Shown piece after piece: positions 3,131 to 18,966 of a stretch of 64,000 nt of DNA. The stretch's first letter is position 1. Every line of letters begins with the position of its first letter. The position numbers and the translations under genes are program-made. The notes under the pieces are model-generated. The model searched no databases and had not been told where the DNA came from. It saw only the letters and a program-made list of their open reading frames with translations. This DNA comes from Salinicoccus carnicancri Crm (GTDB lineage Bacteria > Bacillota > Bacilli > Staphylococcales > Salinicoccaceae), in assembly GCF_000330705.1 (NCBI RefSeq), contig NZ_ANAM01000003.1:1-64000 (forward strand), in the 5' to 3' direction.

Positions 3131-3955
3131 ATGGATCCATTGCAGAAGCGGAATTCCGGATTTGGGGATGAAGACCCGGCGGCCGGCCAAAAGGGTGCCG
3201 CCCCAAAAGGGGGCGGGAAGCCGGGGAGCCCGTCAGAGGATCCGTTCGAACCGCTCGAGGACCAGCTCCTGGCTGTGCGCAGCCTGCTGATCAAGTCGGC
3301 TGTTGCGGCAGCCCTCTGGTTCATCATCATCTTCTTCACTGTTGAATGGTGGTTCTCGTTCGTTTCGAAAGGCTTTGAAATCGTCGTGATGGGGCCGTTC
3401 GAAGTCATCCGCTTCTATGTGCGGACCTCGGCGGCCATTGCGCTCGGCCTGTCGGTGCCGTTCATACTGTATTTCCTGTGGCAGTACGTACAGAAGGTGA
3501 TGGGGCTCCGCGGCGTGAACGTCTCCATGCTGCGCGGCATGGTGCCCCTCATGATCGGGCTGTTCTTTCTGGGGCTCGTCTTCGGCTATTTCGTCGTGCA
3601 CCCCGTGAGCTATTACTTCCTGATCCAGATGGGCGAGCAGAACTTCGATGTGCTGGTGACGGCGGACGAATACATGTCGTTCCTCCTGATGTCATCCATC
3701 CCGATGGGGCTCATCTTCCAGCTGCCGATGGCGGTTCTATTCCTCAATCACATTGAACTGCTGGATGCGGCGCTGATGGTGAAAGCACGCAAGTATTCCT
3801 ATTTCGCACTCATCGTGCTCACCGCGCTGATTGCACCGCCGGACCTGTTTTCACACCTCATCGTGCTTGCGCCGATGATCGTGCTGTATGAGGTCAGCAT
3901 CCATATTGTAAAAAGGAAAGAAAAAAAAGAGGCAGGACTCGGGGGCCGGGAGTAG
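3131..3955 (+). CDS. tatC: TatC, twin-arginine translocase core protein (copy 1)
   Basis: This 274-residue protein is an integral membrane TatC with six expected helices. Residues from about 48 match the family ([16 protein letters not shown]..., [13 protein letters not shown]..., [27 protein letters not shown]). TatC recognises the twin-arginine signal, so its place directly behind the Tat-signal oxidoreductase suggests a translocase devoted to that complex. The first roughly 45 residues are a Pro/Gly/Lys-rich cytoplasmic extension not usual in the family. Start ATG 3131 follows AACAGGTGATTTAA. A close paralogue sits at 5142-5957 on the other strand; both contain the identical stretch [20 protein letters not shown]. 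No tatA-like small gene is visible beside either copy. Confidence 0.93.
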
Positions 3956-5141: not shown

Positions 5142-5957
5142 TTATTCGGCCGCTTTTTTGGCCCGCTTCGCCGCACGCCGTTCACGGATCCTCACGATGT
5201 AGATGCTGATCTCGTACAGCACGATCATCGGGCTGATGGTGATGAGGTGTGTGAAGAAGTCGGGCGGGGCGATCAGCGCGGTGATCACCAGCAGTGCGAA
5301 ATAGACGTATTTGCGCACTTTTCTCATAAGCGCCGCATCCAGCAGTTCGATATGGTGCAGAAACAGCACGATGACCGGCAGCTGGAAGATGAGTCCCATC
5401 GGCATCGTCGATATCAGCAGGAACGACATGTATTCATCCGCCGTCACCAGTACGTCGAAGTTCTGCTCGCCCATCTGGATCAGGAAATAATAGCTCACGG
5501 GGTGCACGACGAAATAGCCGAATGACAATCCGCCGAGGAAGAGCAGGAACATCAGCGGGAAATAGGATTTCAAAAACTGTGTCTCCTTGTCGACGAGCCC
5601 CGGCCTCATGAACTGCCACAGGAACCGGCAGATGAACGGCAGGCTGAGGCCGATGCCGAGCGCTCCGGCAGTCCGTATGTAGAAGCGGATGACTTCGAAC
5701 GGCCCCCGCACGATCAGGTCATGGCCCTTCGACAGATAGGGGAACCAGTACTGGATGGTCAGGAATATGAGCATGAAGAAAATTACGAACACGACCGCCG
5801 ACTTTATCAGCATGCCGCGCAGATCATCCAGGTGCTCGACAAGCGTCGCATCCGGATCCTCTACCGTCACCCTGCTCCGCTTTGTCTCTTCATATCCGTC
5901 GTCGCTGATGGCTTTTATCGTATCTTTTCTGTCATTGTCATTGTCATTCGATGCCAT
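5142..5957 (-). CDS. tatC: TatC, twin-arginine translocase core protein (copy 2)
   Basis: This is a 271-residue TatC paralogue of 3131-3955. Both contain [42 protein letters not shown] and LIAPPD. Six membrane helices are expected. The N-terminal extension differs: here it is acidic/polar (MASNDNDNDRKDTIKAI...) rather than Pro/Gly-rich. The frame is open to 6113, but ATG 5957 is preceded by AGAAGGTGAACGTG, an ideal ribosome site, and the upstream codons look non-coding. The gene stands alone with its own terminator, convergent with gtaB. Two TatC proteins could serve different cargo sets or pair with different TatA proteins, but no tatA is seen nearby. Confidence 0.93.
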   Translation of the reverse strand: MASNDNDNDRKDTIKAISDDGYEETKRSRVTVEDPDATLVEHLDDLRGMLIKSAVVFVIFFMLIFLTIQYWFPYLSKGHDLIVRGPFEVIRFYIRTAGALGIGLSLPFICRFLWQFMRPGLVDKETQFLKSYFPLMFLLFLGGLSFGYFVVHPVSYYFLIQMGEQNFDVLVTADEYMSFLLISTMPMGLIFQLPVIVLFLHHIELLDAALMRKVRKYVYFALLVITALIAPPDFFTHLITISPMIVLYEISIYIVRIRERRAAKRAKKAAE

Positions 5958-6169
5958 CACGTTCACCTTCTTTTTCCGTTGATCCGCCAAAAGACATACA
6001 CGGAAAATTTTCGTATATGTCCCACTATACACTATTTTCTGCCACCAAATAAAGTTAAGCGCCAGCAAGCGCGCCCGAACCATTTCGAAGACCGGCTCTG
6101 CGAAGAATTCCAAACAGAATATTCAGAGTGAATCTACACCTACCGCTGCTGATATGAAAGGCTTTGGGT

Positions 6170-6214
6170 GCGCCCGATTTCCTTTTACACTATTTTGTAA
6201 AATCAAATCGGCGC
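6170..6214 (+). promoter_or_regulatory. Inverted-repeat leader of NERD gene 1
   Basis: GCGCCCGATTT (6170-6180) is complementary to AAATCGGCGC (6205-6214), with TTTTAC (6183-6188)/GTAAAA (6197-6202) forming an inner stem. The structure is followed by CATATACAGTATAGGAGG and the ATG of the NERD gene. A similar arrangement precedes the second NERD gene (18906-18966) and the orphan leader (4979-5021). It could be a protein operator or an RNA hairpin in the leader; the sequence does not decide. Confidence 0.6.
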
Positions 6215-6247
6215 ATTTTAAGCATATACAGTATAGGAGGTGTTTTT

Positions 6248-7240
6248 ATGTTTCTGAACATACGGCAGAAACCGCAGGAACTGATCTATCATGAAGCATT
6301 GTCAAACCGTTCCATACTGTCGGATAAAGAGCAGCGGAAGCTTGCGGCGCTCTCCAGCGGTCATGCGGGCGAGTGCGAGTATGACAGGCTGTTCGATGCC
6401 GCCGGCCACGGGGGTTTATTAATCTACCGGGATATTTGGATGAAAGTCGATGAAGCCGTCATTCAGGCAGACAGCCTAATCGTCGCCGATGGAGTGGTTG
6501 CTGTGGATGAAGTGAAGAATTTCAGCGGGGACTACAAGTATGCAGGCGGCGAGTGGACAGTCCGCGGCCGTCCGGGCTATGAAGATCCGCTCGCCCAGGT
6601 CTCACGCACCGCCGGCAGACTGGTGCGGCTCGGCGGCAGGATGCCGTACCGTTTCGATGTGCAAAAAAAGGTGGTATTTGTAAATCCTGACATGAATCTA
6701 GAATTCAATTCGGAAGAGAATCAGCGTTTCATCGTCGGGCGGTCCCGGCTCCGGGACCATTTCAAAGCGCTCGGGCGGCTCAGTGCCGGACCCGCCGCCC
6801 ATGAAAACGCCCGGGCGTTCCGCAGATTCTTCATCCGTAATCCGATGCCGCTGCCCGTGACGGATTTCAAACGGATACGGATGGGAAACTATTGTTATGC
6901 GTGTGGTGTGTTTGATCTTCATGTGGGGAAGTATAAAGTGGTGTGCCGCAGATGCGGCTATACGGAGACGACCGAGCGGATGTTCGTGCGTTCACTCATC
7001 GATTTCTCCGTGCTGTTTCATGATCGCAAGATGACCAGCGCCGGGATGTCTTTATTTGTCAGCCACGTGCTGAAGCCGCGGACGGTGCGCAAGTATTTAA
7101 GTAAGTATTGCCATGTGAGAGGGAGCAACAGGGCGACATATTATGTCATAAAGTCAATCCATCTGAAAAAGTTATTATCAGAGAATGGTTATGCATCAAA
7201 ATATGAAACGGATGAGCGGTTTAGAGCGGCCGATGTTTGA
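6248..7240 (+). CDS. NERD-domain, zinc-ribbon protein 1 (putative nuclease)
   Basis: This 330-residue protein has an N-terminal NERD (nuclease-related) domain and a central zinc ribbon. The expected PD-(D/E)XK-like residues are visible: GECEYD (41-46), D75 in QADSLIVAD, and E88/K90 in DEVKNFSG, with the family's DPLAQ motif at 113-117. Cysteines 216, 219, 233 and 236 (CYACG...CRRCG) form a zinc ribbon. The C-terminal 70 residues look like a small helical/winged domain. Start ATG 6248 has AGGAGGTG; the frame is open to 6164 but that region is the leader hairpin. The paralogue at 17812-18855 aligns without gaps for the first 140 residues. It is flanked by a hairpin leader and, 4 bases after its stop, by a 41-bp repeat. 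NERD proteins are predicted nucleases; the actual substrate is unknown. Confidence 0.8.
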   Translation: MFLNIRQKPQELIYHEALSNRSILSDKEQRKLAALSSGHAGECEYDRLFDAAGHGGLLIYRDIWMKVDEAVIQADSLIVADGVVAVDEVKNFSGDYKYAGGEWTVRGRPGYEDPLAQVSRTAGRLVRLGGRMPYRFDVQKKVVFVNPDMNLEFNSEENQRFIVGRSRLRDHFKALGRLSAGPAAHENARAFRRFFIRNPMPLPVTDFKRIRMGNYCYACGVFDLHVGKYKVVCRRCGYTETTERMFVRSLIDFSVLFHDRKMTSAGMSLFVSHVLKPRTVRKYLSKYCHVRGSNRATYYVIKSIHLKKLLSENGYASKYETDERFRAADV

Positions 7241-7244
7241 GCCC

Positions 7245-7313
7245 GTGCCATGAAACTCATTTGGTGGCACCCGTTCAGCGCACCTGTGCCATGAAACACG
7301 TTTGGTGGCACCC
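7245..7313 (+). repeat. Two-copy 41-bp repeat abutting NERD gene 1
   Basis: A 28-base sequence beginning GTGCCATGAAAC occurs at 7245-7272 and 7286-7313 with two mismatches and a period of 41. Each copy carries GTGCCA/TGGCAC inverted arms 14 bases apart. A short imperfect duplication (GCACCCTCGCACAAA / GCACCCCCGCACAAA) follows up to 7338. The array begins 4 bases after the stop of the NERD gene. Confidence 0.8.
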
Positions 7314-7336: not shown

Positions 7337-7377
7337 AAAAAACCCGGAATCCCGTCAAAACGGGGGTTCCGGGTTTT
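7337..7377. terminator. Bidirectional terminator between NERD gene 1 and ltaA
   Basis: AACCCGGAA..CCCG pairs with CGGG..TTCCGGGTT, flanked by an A-run on the left and T-run on the right. It can end both the NERD transcript and the convergent ltaA transcript. Confidence 0.85.
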
Positions 7378-8650
7378 ACGCGCGGCGCCATCTGAACGCG
7401 AACAGCACGGCGTAATAGGCGAACAGCACGACGAAGATCAGGCCGCTCGCAAGCAGCGTGGCGTCGACGGTGCCGAACAGGTCGGCCGTCAGCCCGCCCA
7501 GGGCGGGGCCGATCATCGCGCCGATGCCCTGCACGGAGCTGATGACGCCCCATGATTCGGCGCGGCGGCCCTCCGCAATCGTGCCGGCGAGGTATTTATT
7601 CCACGCGGGCAGCATGATGCCGTAGGACAGCCCGATGAAGCTGGCGATCGCGAAGATGAGCCAGATCGTCTCGAGTGTCGAGAACCATATGATGCCGGCG
7701 GCATAGATGAAGAAACCGGCGCAGATGACGGCGGCCGTCAGCCGCATCGAATACGTATCGAGGCCGCGGCTCAGCACGGTCATGCTGAAAGCGACGAGGC
7801 CGAACACGATGAGGATGAAGAATGTGTACTGGAAATAGTTCAATGACAGCCCGGATGTGATATATGTCGGCAGCACGGGCAGCAGCATGCCGACGCCGAG
7901 CCCCTGCAGCATGATTCCCGGCATGTTCTTCATGTGGCGTTTCAGTATATGCCATGTATCACGGAGCGGCAGCCGCTTCTTCACGCCGCTCCTGTCGCGC
8001 CGCTTCGAGGACGACCCGCCCGCCTCACCTGTACTGTACACTTCCCGGCCGACCTTCTCCCCGACGGTCTCGGGGTCGCCGCCGACCGCGTCAACCAGCT
8101 CTTTCCGGTTGCCCGGCAGCACAAGGAAGGCCATCAGGTTCACGATGAACACGCCGGCCATCGCAAACACGGACTCCTCTGCGAATATCCCGATCAGGAA
8201 GTTCATCGCGACCATGCCGGCGCCGAGGCCGCTCAGCCACGAGAAGAACACGAGCCCCATGTCGCGGCCGCGGTTCTTCTCCTCGATGTTCGAGAGCGCC
8301 ATGATCCATATCGGACAGACGCTTACACCGAGCAGGCAGGATGCAGCCGCGAGCGTCCAGAAGCTCTGGTCGAAGCCGACCGCCACCATTGCGCCGATGC
8401 CCAGAAGGTAGCTCAGCAGCATCGTCCACACCTCGCCGATCTTGCGTATCAGGAACCCGAGCCAGACATTGGTCACCGCATCGAGCACGTAGTGCATCGT
8501 GATCACAATCGAGCTCAGACCGATCGAAATCAGGCCGATCGTCGGCAGGGCGGGCAGATAGCTCAGTATGAACATCCCCCGGACCATCTCGGTCAGGAAT
8601 AATATGAGAGCGAGTTTCCAAAATCGCTTCTTCTTCAAGTCATTTGTCAT
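7376..8650 (-). CDS. ltaA: LtaA, lipoteichoic acid glycolipid flippase (MFS)
   Basis: This 424-residue protein of the major facilitator superfamily has twelve expected helices. It closely resembles staphylococcal LtaA: FLTEMVRGMFILSYLPALPT, CPIWIMALSNIEEKNRG, FPGIxLQG-type central region (MPGIMLQGLGVG) and YGIMLPAWNKYLAG. LtaA flips diglucosyl-diacylglycerol, the lipid anchor of lipoteichoic acid, to the outer face of the membrane. In S. aureus it is encoded with the glucosyltransferase ypfP just before murE; here murE is next and divergent and ypfP is absent. The central loop (around 200-230) is longer and more charged than in S. aureus. The frame opens at TTG 8668, but AAGGTG six bases before ATG 8650 favours that start. 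Confidence 0.9.
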   Translation of the reverse strand: MTNDLKKKRFWKLALILFLTEMVRGMFILSYLPALPTIGLISIGLSSIVITMHYVLDAVTNVWLGFLIRKIGEVWTMLLSYLLGIGAMVAVGFDQSFWTLAAASCLLGVSVCPIWIMALSNIEEKNRGRDMGLVFFSWLSGLGAGMVAMNFLIGIFAEESVFAMAGVFIVNLMAFLVLPGNRKELVDAVGGDPETVGEKVGREVYSTGEAGGSSSKRRDRSGVKKRLPLRDTWHILKRHMKNMPGIMLQGLGVGMLLPVLPTYITSGLSLNYFQYTFFILIVFGLVAFSMTVLSRGLDTYSMRLTAAVICAGFFIYAAGIIWFSTLETIWLIFAIASFIGLSYGIMLPAWNKYLAGTIAEGRRAESWGVISSVQGIGAMIGPALGGLTADLFGTVDATLLASGLIFVVLFAYYAVLFAFRWRRA

Positions 8651-8700
8651 CATTTTCACCTTCGCCAATCAGAATCGACACCTAGGTCAGAACATGTATA

Positions 8701-17409: not shown

Positions 17410-17436
17410 TTAATAAAAGCCGGGCGGCGGGGGGCC

Positions 17437-17811
17437 GCTCTTATCATCGATTGCGGATCGGGAATAAGCGACGGTCCGCTCTTATCATCGATCGCGGATC
17501 GGGAACAAGCGGCGGTCCGCTCTTATCATCGATCGCAGATCGGGAACAAGCAACGGGCCGGCTCTTATCGTCGATCGCGGATCGAGAACAAGCGACGGGC
17601 CGGCTCTTATCGTCGATCGCGGATCGAGAACAAGCGACGGTCCGCTCTTATCATCGATTGCGGATCGGGAATAAGCAAACGCCGGCTCTTATCATCGTTT
17701 TCGGATCGAGAACAAGCGGCGGCCGGCTCTTATCATCGATTCCAAAACAACAATAAGCAAACGCCGGCTCTTATCATCGATTCCAAAACAACAATAAGCA
17801 AACGCCGCCTC
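17437..17811. repeat. Nine-copy 41/42-bp tandem repeat array abutting NERD gene 2
   Basis: Units beginning GCTCTTATCATCGAT start at 17437, 17478, 17519, 17561, 17603, 17644, 17685, 17726 and 17767, with a broken unit at 17807; the period is 41 (twice 42). Units keep CTTAT near the start and ATAAG or ACAAG about 20 bases later, which can form a weak hairpin, and vary most in the linker. The period is not a multiple of three, so the open frames across it are not protein. On the minus strand the stop codon of the NERD gene (TAA, 17814-17812) is formed by the first repeat-like TAAGAGGCGG. There are no unique spacers, so this is not a CRISPR. Confidence 0.93.
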
Positions 17812-18855
17812 TTACAGATAATTCGCCTGCAGTTTATGCCTCCTTGGATGCGTTTCAAACATAAATTCCGGATCGTGTTCGTAATGTGAAGAATAGCCTC
17901 CGGCTTTTAAAGTTTTGACTGGATTATTATCAGCTATCCGGTAGTGGGTACGGGAACTGTTTGGGACAATGGGGAAATACTTTTTCATCAGCCGCTGGAC
18001 CCTCTGCAGATCCACTGATCCATCGAGAAAGTCGGAAATCTTCTTTTTCGTCACCTCCTCACCCGGGAACAGCACTGCGAAATCGACCACGGTGCGGACG
18101 ACCAGCCTTTCGACGGTCTCGGCATAGCCGCATCCGCGGCATATGGACACGAACCGTTTCATCTCCACGTCGAAACTTCCGCACCTAAAGCAGTTCACGC
18201 CCAGTCTGAGCCGCCCGTAATCAGTTTCCGGAACCGGATAGGGATCGGCGATGATGCGCCCCGCTATCTCCTCTGACAGGACTTTTGCGGAACGGCCGGA
18301 TGTATGGTTGCCGAGGCTGCGGAAGTACTGCTTCAGACGGTTCCGCATGATGAAATGCCTGGAGCCGCCGGCACCATCACTATCCCCACCCTCACCACCC
18401 CCGAAAATGAAATACGGATTGATGAAGACGATCTCCTTCTCAATATCGAATGGGAACCCCGACTCATTGCGGAGTTTCACAAGTTTCCCGGCAGCGCGGC
18501 TGAGCTGACTGACGGGATCCTCGGAAATCTGCTGGCCGCGCACCCTCCAGACCCCGTTCTCATACGAATAATTGCCGCTGTAATTTTTGATCTCATTCAC
18601 GGCCAAAACATTATCCGCCACGATCAGCGCATCGAACTGGACCTCACCGCCGCCGATCCGCAGCCATATATCCCGGAAAACGAAAAGATTGTCATGCCCG
18701 ACCGCATCAAGCACCGCATCATATTCACACTCGCCCGAATATCCCGACCGGTGCCGCCTGAGGTCTGCCGACTCCTTCCTATCAAGCTCCGCACGTCCCG
18801 ACAAAGTTTCAAAGTATACATGGTGCTTCGACCTGTTTCTCTCAGTAACGAACAT
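17812..18855 (-). CDS. NERD-domain, zinc-ribbon protein 2 (putative nuclease)
   Basis: This is a 347-residue paralogue of the NERD protein at 6248-7240. Key residues fall at the same numbers: GECEYD 41-46, D75 (QFDALIVAD), E88/K90 (NEIKNYSG) and DPVSQ 113-117. Zinc-ribbon cysteines are 222, 225, 239 and 242 (CFRCG...CRGCG). A Gly/Asp-rich insertion (about 151-165) is absent from the paralogue. The frame opens at TTG 18867, but that codon overlaps the GGAGG ribosome site; ATG 18855, five bases after it, gives the N-terminus that aligns with the paralogue. An inverted-repeat leader precedes it and the 41-bp array touches its stop codon. It is predicted to cut or bind nucleic acid; nothing more specific can be said. 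Confidence 0.8.
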   Translation of the reverse strand: MFVTERNRSKHHVYFETLSGRAELDRKESADLRRHRSGYSGECEYDAVLDAVGHDNLFVFRDIWLRIGGGEVQFDALIVADNVLAVNEIKNYSGNYSYENGVWRVRGQQISEDPVSQLSRAAGKLVKLRNESGFPFDIEKEIVFINPYFIFGGGEGGDSDGAGGSRHFIMRNRLKQYFRSLGNHTSGRSAKVLSEEIAGRIIADPYPVPETDYGRLRLGVNCFRCGSFDVEMKRFVSICRGCGYAETVERLVVRTVVDFAVLFPGEEVTKKKISDFLDGSVDLQRVQRLMKKYFPIVPNSSRTHYRIADNNPVKTLKAGGYSSHYEHDPEFMFETHPRRHKLQANYL

Positions 18856-18905
18856 ATCTGCCTCCAAACTTCATGATAAAAAGCTCTTCACCCTATATAT
18901 GCCTG

Positions 18906-18966
18906 AAAACGGCCGGTTTGATCTTTTCAGAATTAAAAAGGCAGATTTCGCAAAACCGGCACCGTT
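18906..18966 (-). promoter_or_regulatory. Inverted-repeat leader of NERD gene 2
   Basis: AAACGG plus CCGGTTT (18906-18919) is complementary to AAACCGG, a CA bulge, and CCGTTT (18953-18966). On the minus strand the structure ends next to a CATATATAGGGTGAAG element about 45 bases before the ATG of the NERD gene. It is equivalent in position and design to 6170-6214 and 4979-5021. Confidence 0.55.

Follow-up and report, generated by a model that had tools for sequence, protein, structure and literature searches.

Why is the gene of a predicted nuclease followed at once by a repeat of its own, and is this arrangement more than an accident of one locus? The question arises in a window of 64,000 nucleotides that forms the start of contig C3 in the 2.67 Mb genome of Salinicoccus carnicancri Crm. 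A first-pass annotation, made from the letters alone, had described here a NERD/zinc-ribbon gene packed between an inverted-repeat leader and a 41-bp-period repeat (Table 1). The gene assignment held: the protein matches the PF08378 profile (E 1.1e-7) and has the four zinc-ribbon cysteines C216/C219/C233/C236. The repeat was also found as described. Its copies, 7245-7270 and 7286-7311 (GTGCCATGAAAC..TTTGGTGGCAC), have a spacing of 41 and begin 4 bases past the stop codon. Taken alone they are modest evidence; their self-match score of 25 was reached by 6 of 464 unrelated genes, and the array is absent from the output of Tandem Repeats Finder (TRF). The inverted repeat behind it looks, by eye, like a terminator in common with the converging gene at 7376-8668. 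For the second NERD gene of the window the same three-part layout had been claimed, and this was half right: the 41-bp array is there (TRF counts 7.4 plus 4.2 copies, which overlap), but the hairpin leader is not (z -0.69).

Table 1. Positions in the window of the two NERD genes and of their flanking elements
Feature	Position	Strand	Description
Leader stem-loop of first NERD gene	about 6170-6215	+	z -3.55
Promoter motif TCAAATCGGCGCATTTTAAGCATATACAG, first gene	6203..6231	+	28.7 bits, matrix from com-gene promoters
First NERD gene	6248-7240	+	330 aa; NERD (PD-(D/E)XK-like) + zinc ribbon + winged helix
First array	7245..7311	+	two 26-bp dyad units, 41 bp apart
GC-rich inverted repeat, then T run	7342..7377	.	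read by eye
41-bp tandem array of second gene	17435-17814	-	extends into stop codon of second gene
Second NERD gene	17812-18855	-	347 aa; NERD + zinc ribbon + winged helix
Promoter motif, second gene	18893..18921	-	36.0 bits, same com-gene matrix

The genome contains six NERD genes. Four of them combine NERD, zinc ribbon and a C-terminal domain (PF08378 scores 32.8, 39.3, 39.4 and 41.1 bits, all above the cut-off of 22.1), and each of them is followed, 3' of the stop codon, by a 41-bp repeat whose sequence differs from gene to gene; the two copies at the first gene were recognised by eye, the other three arrays by TRF. The remaining two genes (L001 and L003) have a different architecture, without zinc ribbon and winged helix, and no arrays were found at them. 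They look like relatives of SmdA, and one of them has a hydrophobic N-terminus and a coiled-coil-like stretch. The fourth family gene, G000:C2:14607-15575 (L002, L203), is interrupted by an in-frame TAG at about residue 43. It has an array of 7 copies despite this, and several dispersed arrays belong to the same repeat family. Adjoining the first NERD gene there are two similar genes on opposite strands (3131-3955 and 5142-6113), presumably with a TatC-like sequence; two stretches matching them are present in other genomes of the genus too. A prophage, a plasmid or a known defence system was rejected as an explanation: PHROG gave no matches for four proteins, the first gene's protein had no plasmid match, one viral pattern scan found no relative, and the PADLOC matches were weak and roughly limited to the NERD part.

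How far does the association of gene and array extend? The search for homologues covered 12 genomes from the genus, 33 from the family, 157 from the order and a sample of 348 from the class, where the numbers are lower bounds, as no more than six candidates per genome were scored. Of the gene copies in the fetched stretches, 215 include the C-terminal end; 191 of these are distinct, and 188 have sufficient downstream sequence. Among these 188 class Bacilli homologues an array lies 3' of the stop codon in 155 and 5' of the gene in 47; 172 have one on either or both sides, which leaves 16 without an array at the threshold. The first-pass annotation had named a lack of arrays at most NERD homologues as an outcome that would refute the link; the reverse was found. 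TRF gave a similar picture for 125 family genes (from the family's genomes and two others): an array lies within 300 bp 3' of the stop in 97, within 900 bp upstream in 21, and on either side in 105. In a matched control of stretches fetched for genes alone, arrays accompany 69/78 family genes and 6/464 unrelated ORFs (Fisher p about 1e-69, with genes treated as independent and relatedness uncorrected). Four of the six control matches are themselves 41-bp arrays. A broader control found arrays at 45 of 836 unrelated genes, a value inflated because most of these matches lie in stretches fetched for, or syntenic to, arrays. Arrays do therefore occur beside unrelated genes, which had been named as a reason to doubt the link, but much more rarely, and they are dispersed copies with a likeness to the repeats of NERD genes in the same genome. 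By these sequence comparisons the link, put forward earlier as a hypothesis, is strongly supported across the family. Separately, some ORFs of about 120-200 aa in several genomes of the genus match the zinc-ribbon/C-terminal part only (L018, L028, L034, L035, L036 and G000:C6:97418-97705); the one compared with Pfam had no match there, and the five read by lag score had no arrays.

Dispersed copies can be traced within single genomes. With the four own-genome units as query there were 62 matches in the Crm genome. The 17 matched stretches contain 16 arrays apart from those of the four genes, three at contig ends. Although this sample is biased, the stretches having been fetched for such matches, 15 of the 16 exceed the 99% null in similarity to a NERD array of the same genome (L149 not clearly). 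A less biased case is offered by the second gene's syntenic site, where four genomes have gene plus array, seven a lone array and G006 neither. Each of the seven lone arrays is similar to an array linked to a NERD gene in its own genome (0.37-0.52, against a 99% null of 0.17); three match their own genome's linked array best, and four score higher with that of a sister genome. One repeat family has 8, 16, 8, 13 and 17 matches in G002, G003, G005, G007 and G009, which may be one clade, and none in the other seven of the 12 genomes of the genus; in each of the five a NERD-linked array belongs to this family. G006, among the seven, has no full-length family gene, and there is no array in its 19.9 kb spanning both sites. 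In G020, a genome in one contig, the ten unit types used as queries have 229 matches, with at least 25 array places away from genes among the matches listed. Six of 25 such listed gene-less arrays lie within 60 kb of their gene, and as many were obtained in 1093 of 20000 label shuffles, which is weak clustering; that in G002, with 4/5 gene-less arrays within 38 kb of the gene, is suggestive.

The lone arrays lie chiefly between converging genes, in 12/19 classed sites (8/13 in the Crm genome) versus 14/117 background gaps, as classed by crude ORF calling and with 7 of 20 sites being one locus in different genomes. Gene positions are stable: the 61 gene loci of genus g3 occupy 13 syntenic sites, and so the arrays rather than the genes appear to spread. 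Ends of the Crm contigs C1, C2 (both) and C3 (both) are in or near array-matching sequence, and since contigs end at arrays, the number of arrays is probably underestimated.

The periods of the arrays say something about how they may be read. Downstream of the genes they cluster at 20-21, 41-42, 51-53 and 61-62 bp, that is, at whole turns of the double helix: 20 bp in 6 genes, 21 in 9, 41 in 74, 42 in 18, 51 in 11, 52 in 24, 53 in 2, 61 in 1 and 62 in 2, followed by the longer periods 80 (1), 82 (2), 83 (3) and 103 (2). Upstream periods are chiefly 41-42 and 20-21, with single cases of 26, 31, 39, 40, 93, 101 and 102; some of these (26, 39) and one downstream period (80) are not whole turns. 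The best-fitting pitch for the 155 downstream arrays is 10.33 bp (resultant 0.956). Since each clade of genes has one period, it is fairer to take the four classes as four observations, and they came as near whole turns in 1 of 20000 random draws, with class limits set after the data were seen and with the 61-62 class consisting of 3 genes. Such phasing points to double-stranded DNA, whose repeat copies would be read on one face.

The emphasis of the first-pass annotation on hairpins was not borne out. Dyad symmetry of the arrays is modest, with z above 2 in 39/118, and mismatches in the dyad arms show no consistent preference for G-U over A-C (58 vs 91 in the consensus, 223 vs 167 in the copies); the RNA-hairpin reading was rejected for this reason. 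In some Bacilli (L225, L226, L229) the unit of about 20-21 bp appears by eye to have a conserved core of ~12 bp and a variable rest, so that spacer letters vary while the spacing is constant.

What kind of protein accompanies these arrays? In an alignment of 89 sequences the residues of PD-(D/E)XK type are well conserved, D75 being invariant and E42, E88, K90 and Q117 present in at least 90%. The AlphaFold2 model from these 89 sequences reached pLDDT 96.1 and pTM 0.91 and superseded a poor model from 4 sequences (pLDDT 50.0). Its secondary structure, read by eye, suggests a winged-helix arrangement at about 242-301. The top Foldseek matches in the PDB include PD-(D/E)XK nucleases and winged-helix regulators, none of them at E <= 0.001.

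If the protein reads its own repeats, which part of it changes together with them? We compared repeats and domains in 138 genes whose arrays have periods of 38-64. When all 9453 pairs are taken together, repeat similarity correlates weakly with every domain, at 0.11-0.17 (NERD part 0.141, winged helix 0.123). In the 185 close pairs (identity 0.55-0.97) the winged helix reaches 0.64, the C-tail 0.66 and the zinc ribbon 0.54, with the N-terminus, NERD and linker at 0.23-0.27. The partial correlation of the repeat with residues 214-330, given 1-213, is 0.67, and none of 1000 within-cluster permutations was as high; the converse, residues 1-213 given 214-330, is 0.045, with 134/1000 permutations as high. 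Between pairs with the same and with different repeats the widest identity gap falls at residues 271-330. Orthologues of the first gene illustrate this. G000 and G011, whose arrays are unlike, are identical at 182/213 positions in 1-213 and at 27/64 in 264-330. With G008, G000 has the array in common and agrees at 64/67 positions of the latter stretch. It is well supported, for close pairs only, that the repeat follows the C-terminal winged helix and not the nuclease part; the DNA-reading end of the protein seems to recognise its own repeats.

The leaders gave a different result from the one expected. The stem-loop described upstream of the first gene is present and is retained in two orthologues (z -2.33 and -5.85), but it is not general: four further homologues that were folded do not have it (z -0.02 to -1.00). 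Folding took in 7 of the 32 leaders of the genus, and a general hairpin leader was rejected, as among them the stem-loop occurs only in the first gene and its orthologues. Common instead is a promoter-like motif, TCAAAWYNG..TTTT..ATATATAG, found throughout the Salinicoccus NERD leaders and overlapped by the stem-loop in the first gene. The promoter control with genes outside the family gave 1/566. An exact pattern derived from these leaders has 18 matches in the 12 genomes (the reversed pattern 0), of which 11 are before full NERD genes, one before a NERD fragment, five before comGA and one before comEA. These com promoters are chosen for likeness to the NERD motif, because the pattern was drawn from NERD leaders. 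NCBIfam placed one comGA product above the ComGA cut-off, while the other four are similar by eye; comEA was above the cut-off for the ComEA repeat region and below that of the full comE model.

A matrix was then built from the six com promoters, with the 99th percentile of controls as threshold. It is exceeded before 31/32 Salinicoccus NERD genes (the sole miss is a fragment beginning after a stop), 39/61 in g3 and 12/17 in g4, and before 0/15 genes of g2, g5, g6 and g10. The top score among 1254 controls belongs to coiA, a competence gene. This coiA (L138:2677-3681, on C2 of the Crm genome) has the promoter motif of the NERD genes, and arrays at C2:1-87 and C2:6162-6273 flank it. A promoter of competence type is thus a better description of the leader than a repeat, and the motif, as judged from sequence, is common to NERD and com genes in Salinicoccus and more weakly in two related genera. 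By this promoter, which they have in common with the comG and comE operons, the NERD genes agree with a late competence regulon, which in staphylococci is of SigH type. In S. aureus, SigH transcribes comG and comE (PMC3486894), and we infer that the motif is a SigH site. ComK-like boxes in other Bacilli (8/49 vs 3/128; Markov expectation 2.45, never above 6 over 60 runs), seven of the eight falling in the lower-scoring group, are only suggestive. The leader of L134 (genus g10) contains TTTACGAATC, which we take to be reminiscent of the streptococcal ComX box.

We favour, with a confidence slightly better than even, the following explanation: this is a family of competence-expressed proteins of PD-(D/E)XK type which read their own repeats, probably cut or nick there and so drive recombination and spread of the arrays. 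The C-terminal part would recognise one tandem-repeat family as double-stranded DNA, several copies being bound together along one face of the helix, which would account for the whole-turn periods. One cognate array would stand beside the gene and more arrays of the same family would be scattered between other genes. During natural competence the protein would bind its arrays and then nick or cut them, and repair or recombination with incoming or sister DNA would homogenise, expand and copy them, so that gene and repeats could maintain themselves, either selfishly or as a recombination hot spot. The proposal builds on what can be read from the genomes, namely the linkage of genes with arrays, the phasing, the scattered cognate arrays, the co-variation of repeat and C-terminal part, the catalytic-type residues and the com promoter motif; binding, cutting or nicking, the timing in competence and copying via recombination are the steps that it would add. 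A more far-reaching version, which we hold as a tentative possibility and somewhat doubt, is a drive coupled to transformation. Here cuts or nicks made in the own arrays at the time of competence would be safe hot spots between converging genes, and DNA of kin would be preferentially integrated there. Arrays and gene would be copied in the process, protein specificity and repeats would chase each other, and the whole would be a bacterial counterpart of satellite DNA with a co-evolving reader.

The chief rival is binding in the service of the host without cleavage of the arrays. The uncut arrays would be a parking place, a self-mark or a chromosome-organising site in competence, and the nuclease would target other DNA, for example foreign DNA. 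The stable gene positions, the preference of arrays for gaps between converging genes, the competence-type promoter and a phasing that fits cooperative binding all agree with this. Repeat families are nevertheless replaced between related species, which is unusual for a fixed housekeeping site, and no further partner gene was noticed among neighbours viewed unsystematically; on balance we consider this explanation unlikely. Less probable again is a homing-type mobile gene that cuts arrays already present and thereby inserts itself into them. The TRF arrays that flank 13/125 genes on both sides, several with an identical unit, could be read in this way, as could the Salinicoccus site with gene plus array in 4 genomes and array alone in 7, but the confinement of the 61 g3 genes to 13 common syntenic sites means that gene movement is rare at that depth.

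Three further explanations concern the array itself, and we give them still smaller chances. The position of the array directly 3' of the stop codon would suit an operator or an mRNA-stability element of the gene itself; such autoregulation is improbable, as it explains neither the same repeat family far from the gene nor the arrays that are upstream only. It is hard to believe that the array acts as RNA, giving rise to hairpin or guide RNAs in the manner of type III toxin-antitoxin or CRISPR-like systems. Folding is possible for single units of the first array (z -1.12 and -2.51), and the 3' UTR probably includes the array, but the G-U counts, the modest dyad symmetry, periods that track DNA pitch, near-identical units without variable spacers and the absence of Rfam matches in the window all speak against it. 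Tandem arrays readily expand, and this ease of expansion would allow a neutral satellite whose duplications merely adjoin these genes by chance. Such an origin has hardly any plausibility left, being contradicted by the matched control (69/78 vs 6/464), by the co-variation with the winged helix and by the helical phasing.

Linked genes, arrays and a promoter of DNA-uptake type point to an undescribed system, which may shape the recombination of incoming DNA. It would join two questions: the origin and spread of dispersed arrays in Gram-positive bacteria, and the role of uncharacterised NERD genes of Bacilli. With the presumed target lying beside most genes, the homologues are ready protein-DNA pairs, and the C-terminal part could serve as a new kind of exchangeable DNA reader. 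If true, an enzyme under competence control that acts on chromosomal repeats would change the picture of recombination after uptake.

Which known systems resemble this one? One open-access library yielded no earlier account of NERD genes accompanied by repeat arrays, though one may exist in print. The NERD domain itself is known from SmdA of S. aureus, PglW and MkoA, and this domain is the likeness to them. The DNA uptake sequences of Neisseria and Haemophilus are likewise species-typical repeats linked with natural transformation; they are short single sites read during uptake, whereas here there are arrays and a presumably intracellular nuclease-like protein. The arrays, judged alone, do not have the unique spacers of CRISPR, their units being near-identical throughout. 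Type III toxin-antitoxin systems have an upstream repeat RNA and a ribonuclease of ToxN fold; here the arrays are mostly downstream and the fold is another.

Closer are the non-CRISPR arrays reported by FLSHclust (PMC10910872), regular arrays by nucleic-acid enzymes, one of these with a PD(D/E)XK domain. Their spacers are hypervariable, and an AddB-like protein or GGDEF partner stands in place of the NERD protein; NERD was found in that paper only in a figure legend, among putative CRISPR auxiliary genes (PMC10910872). STAR elements of Staphylococcus are also dispersed intergenic arrays, with locus-specific spacers and a dispersal mechanism described as unknown (PMC3532100), but their motif is another. 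The STAR core TGTTGNGGCCC, repeated after a 30-55 bp spacer, is without a match in the genus (0 in 12 genomes), and the 11 genomes in which it was present are all of one Staphylococcus-type genus, where no family member was found at E <= 1e-20. At 18 of the 33 listed NERD places in 17 Staphylococcus-type genomes there was neither a family gene nor the STAR motif. STAR was rejected as the same system, no partner gene having been found. In the STAR arrays themselves the inner-stem arms co-vary by eye between copies, e.g. GAATTTC..GAAATTC and GAAATTG..CAATTTC (G076, G078, G080, G092, G098, G112, G114, G131, G139, G151, G153).

The nearest likeness in layout had been suggested at the outset, to REP sequences and RAYT proteins, and part of it stands. 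As with REP/REPIN and RAYT, the gene adjoins its own repeat family, and other copies are dispersed between genes. The analogy fails at the enzyme. RAYT (TnpA-REP) is a Y1 HUH transposase that acts on single-stranded hairpins, whereas the family described here has a PD-(D/E)XK-like NERD fold joined to a winged helix, and its repeats stand in helically phased tandem arrays.
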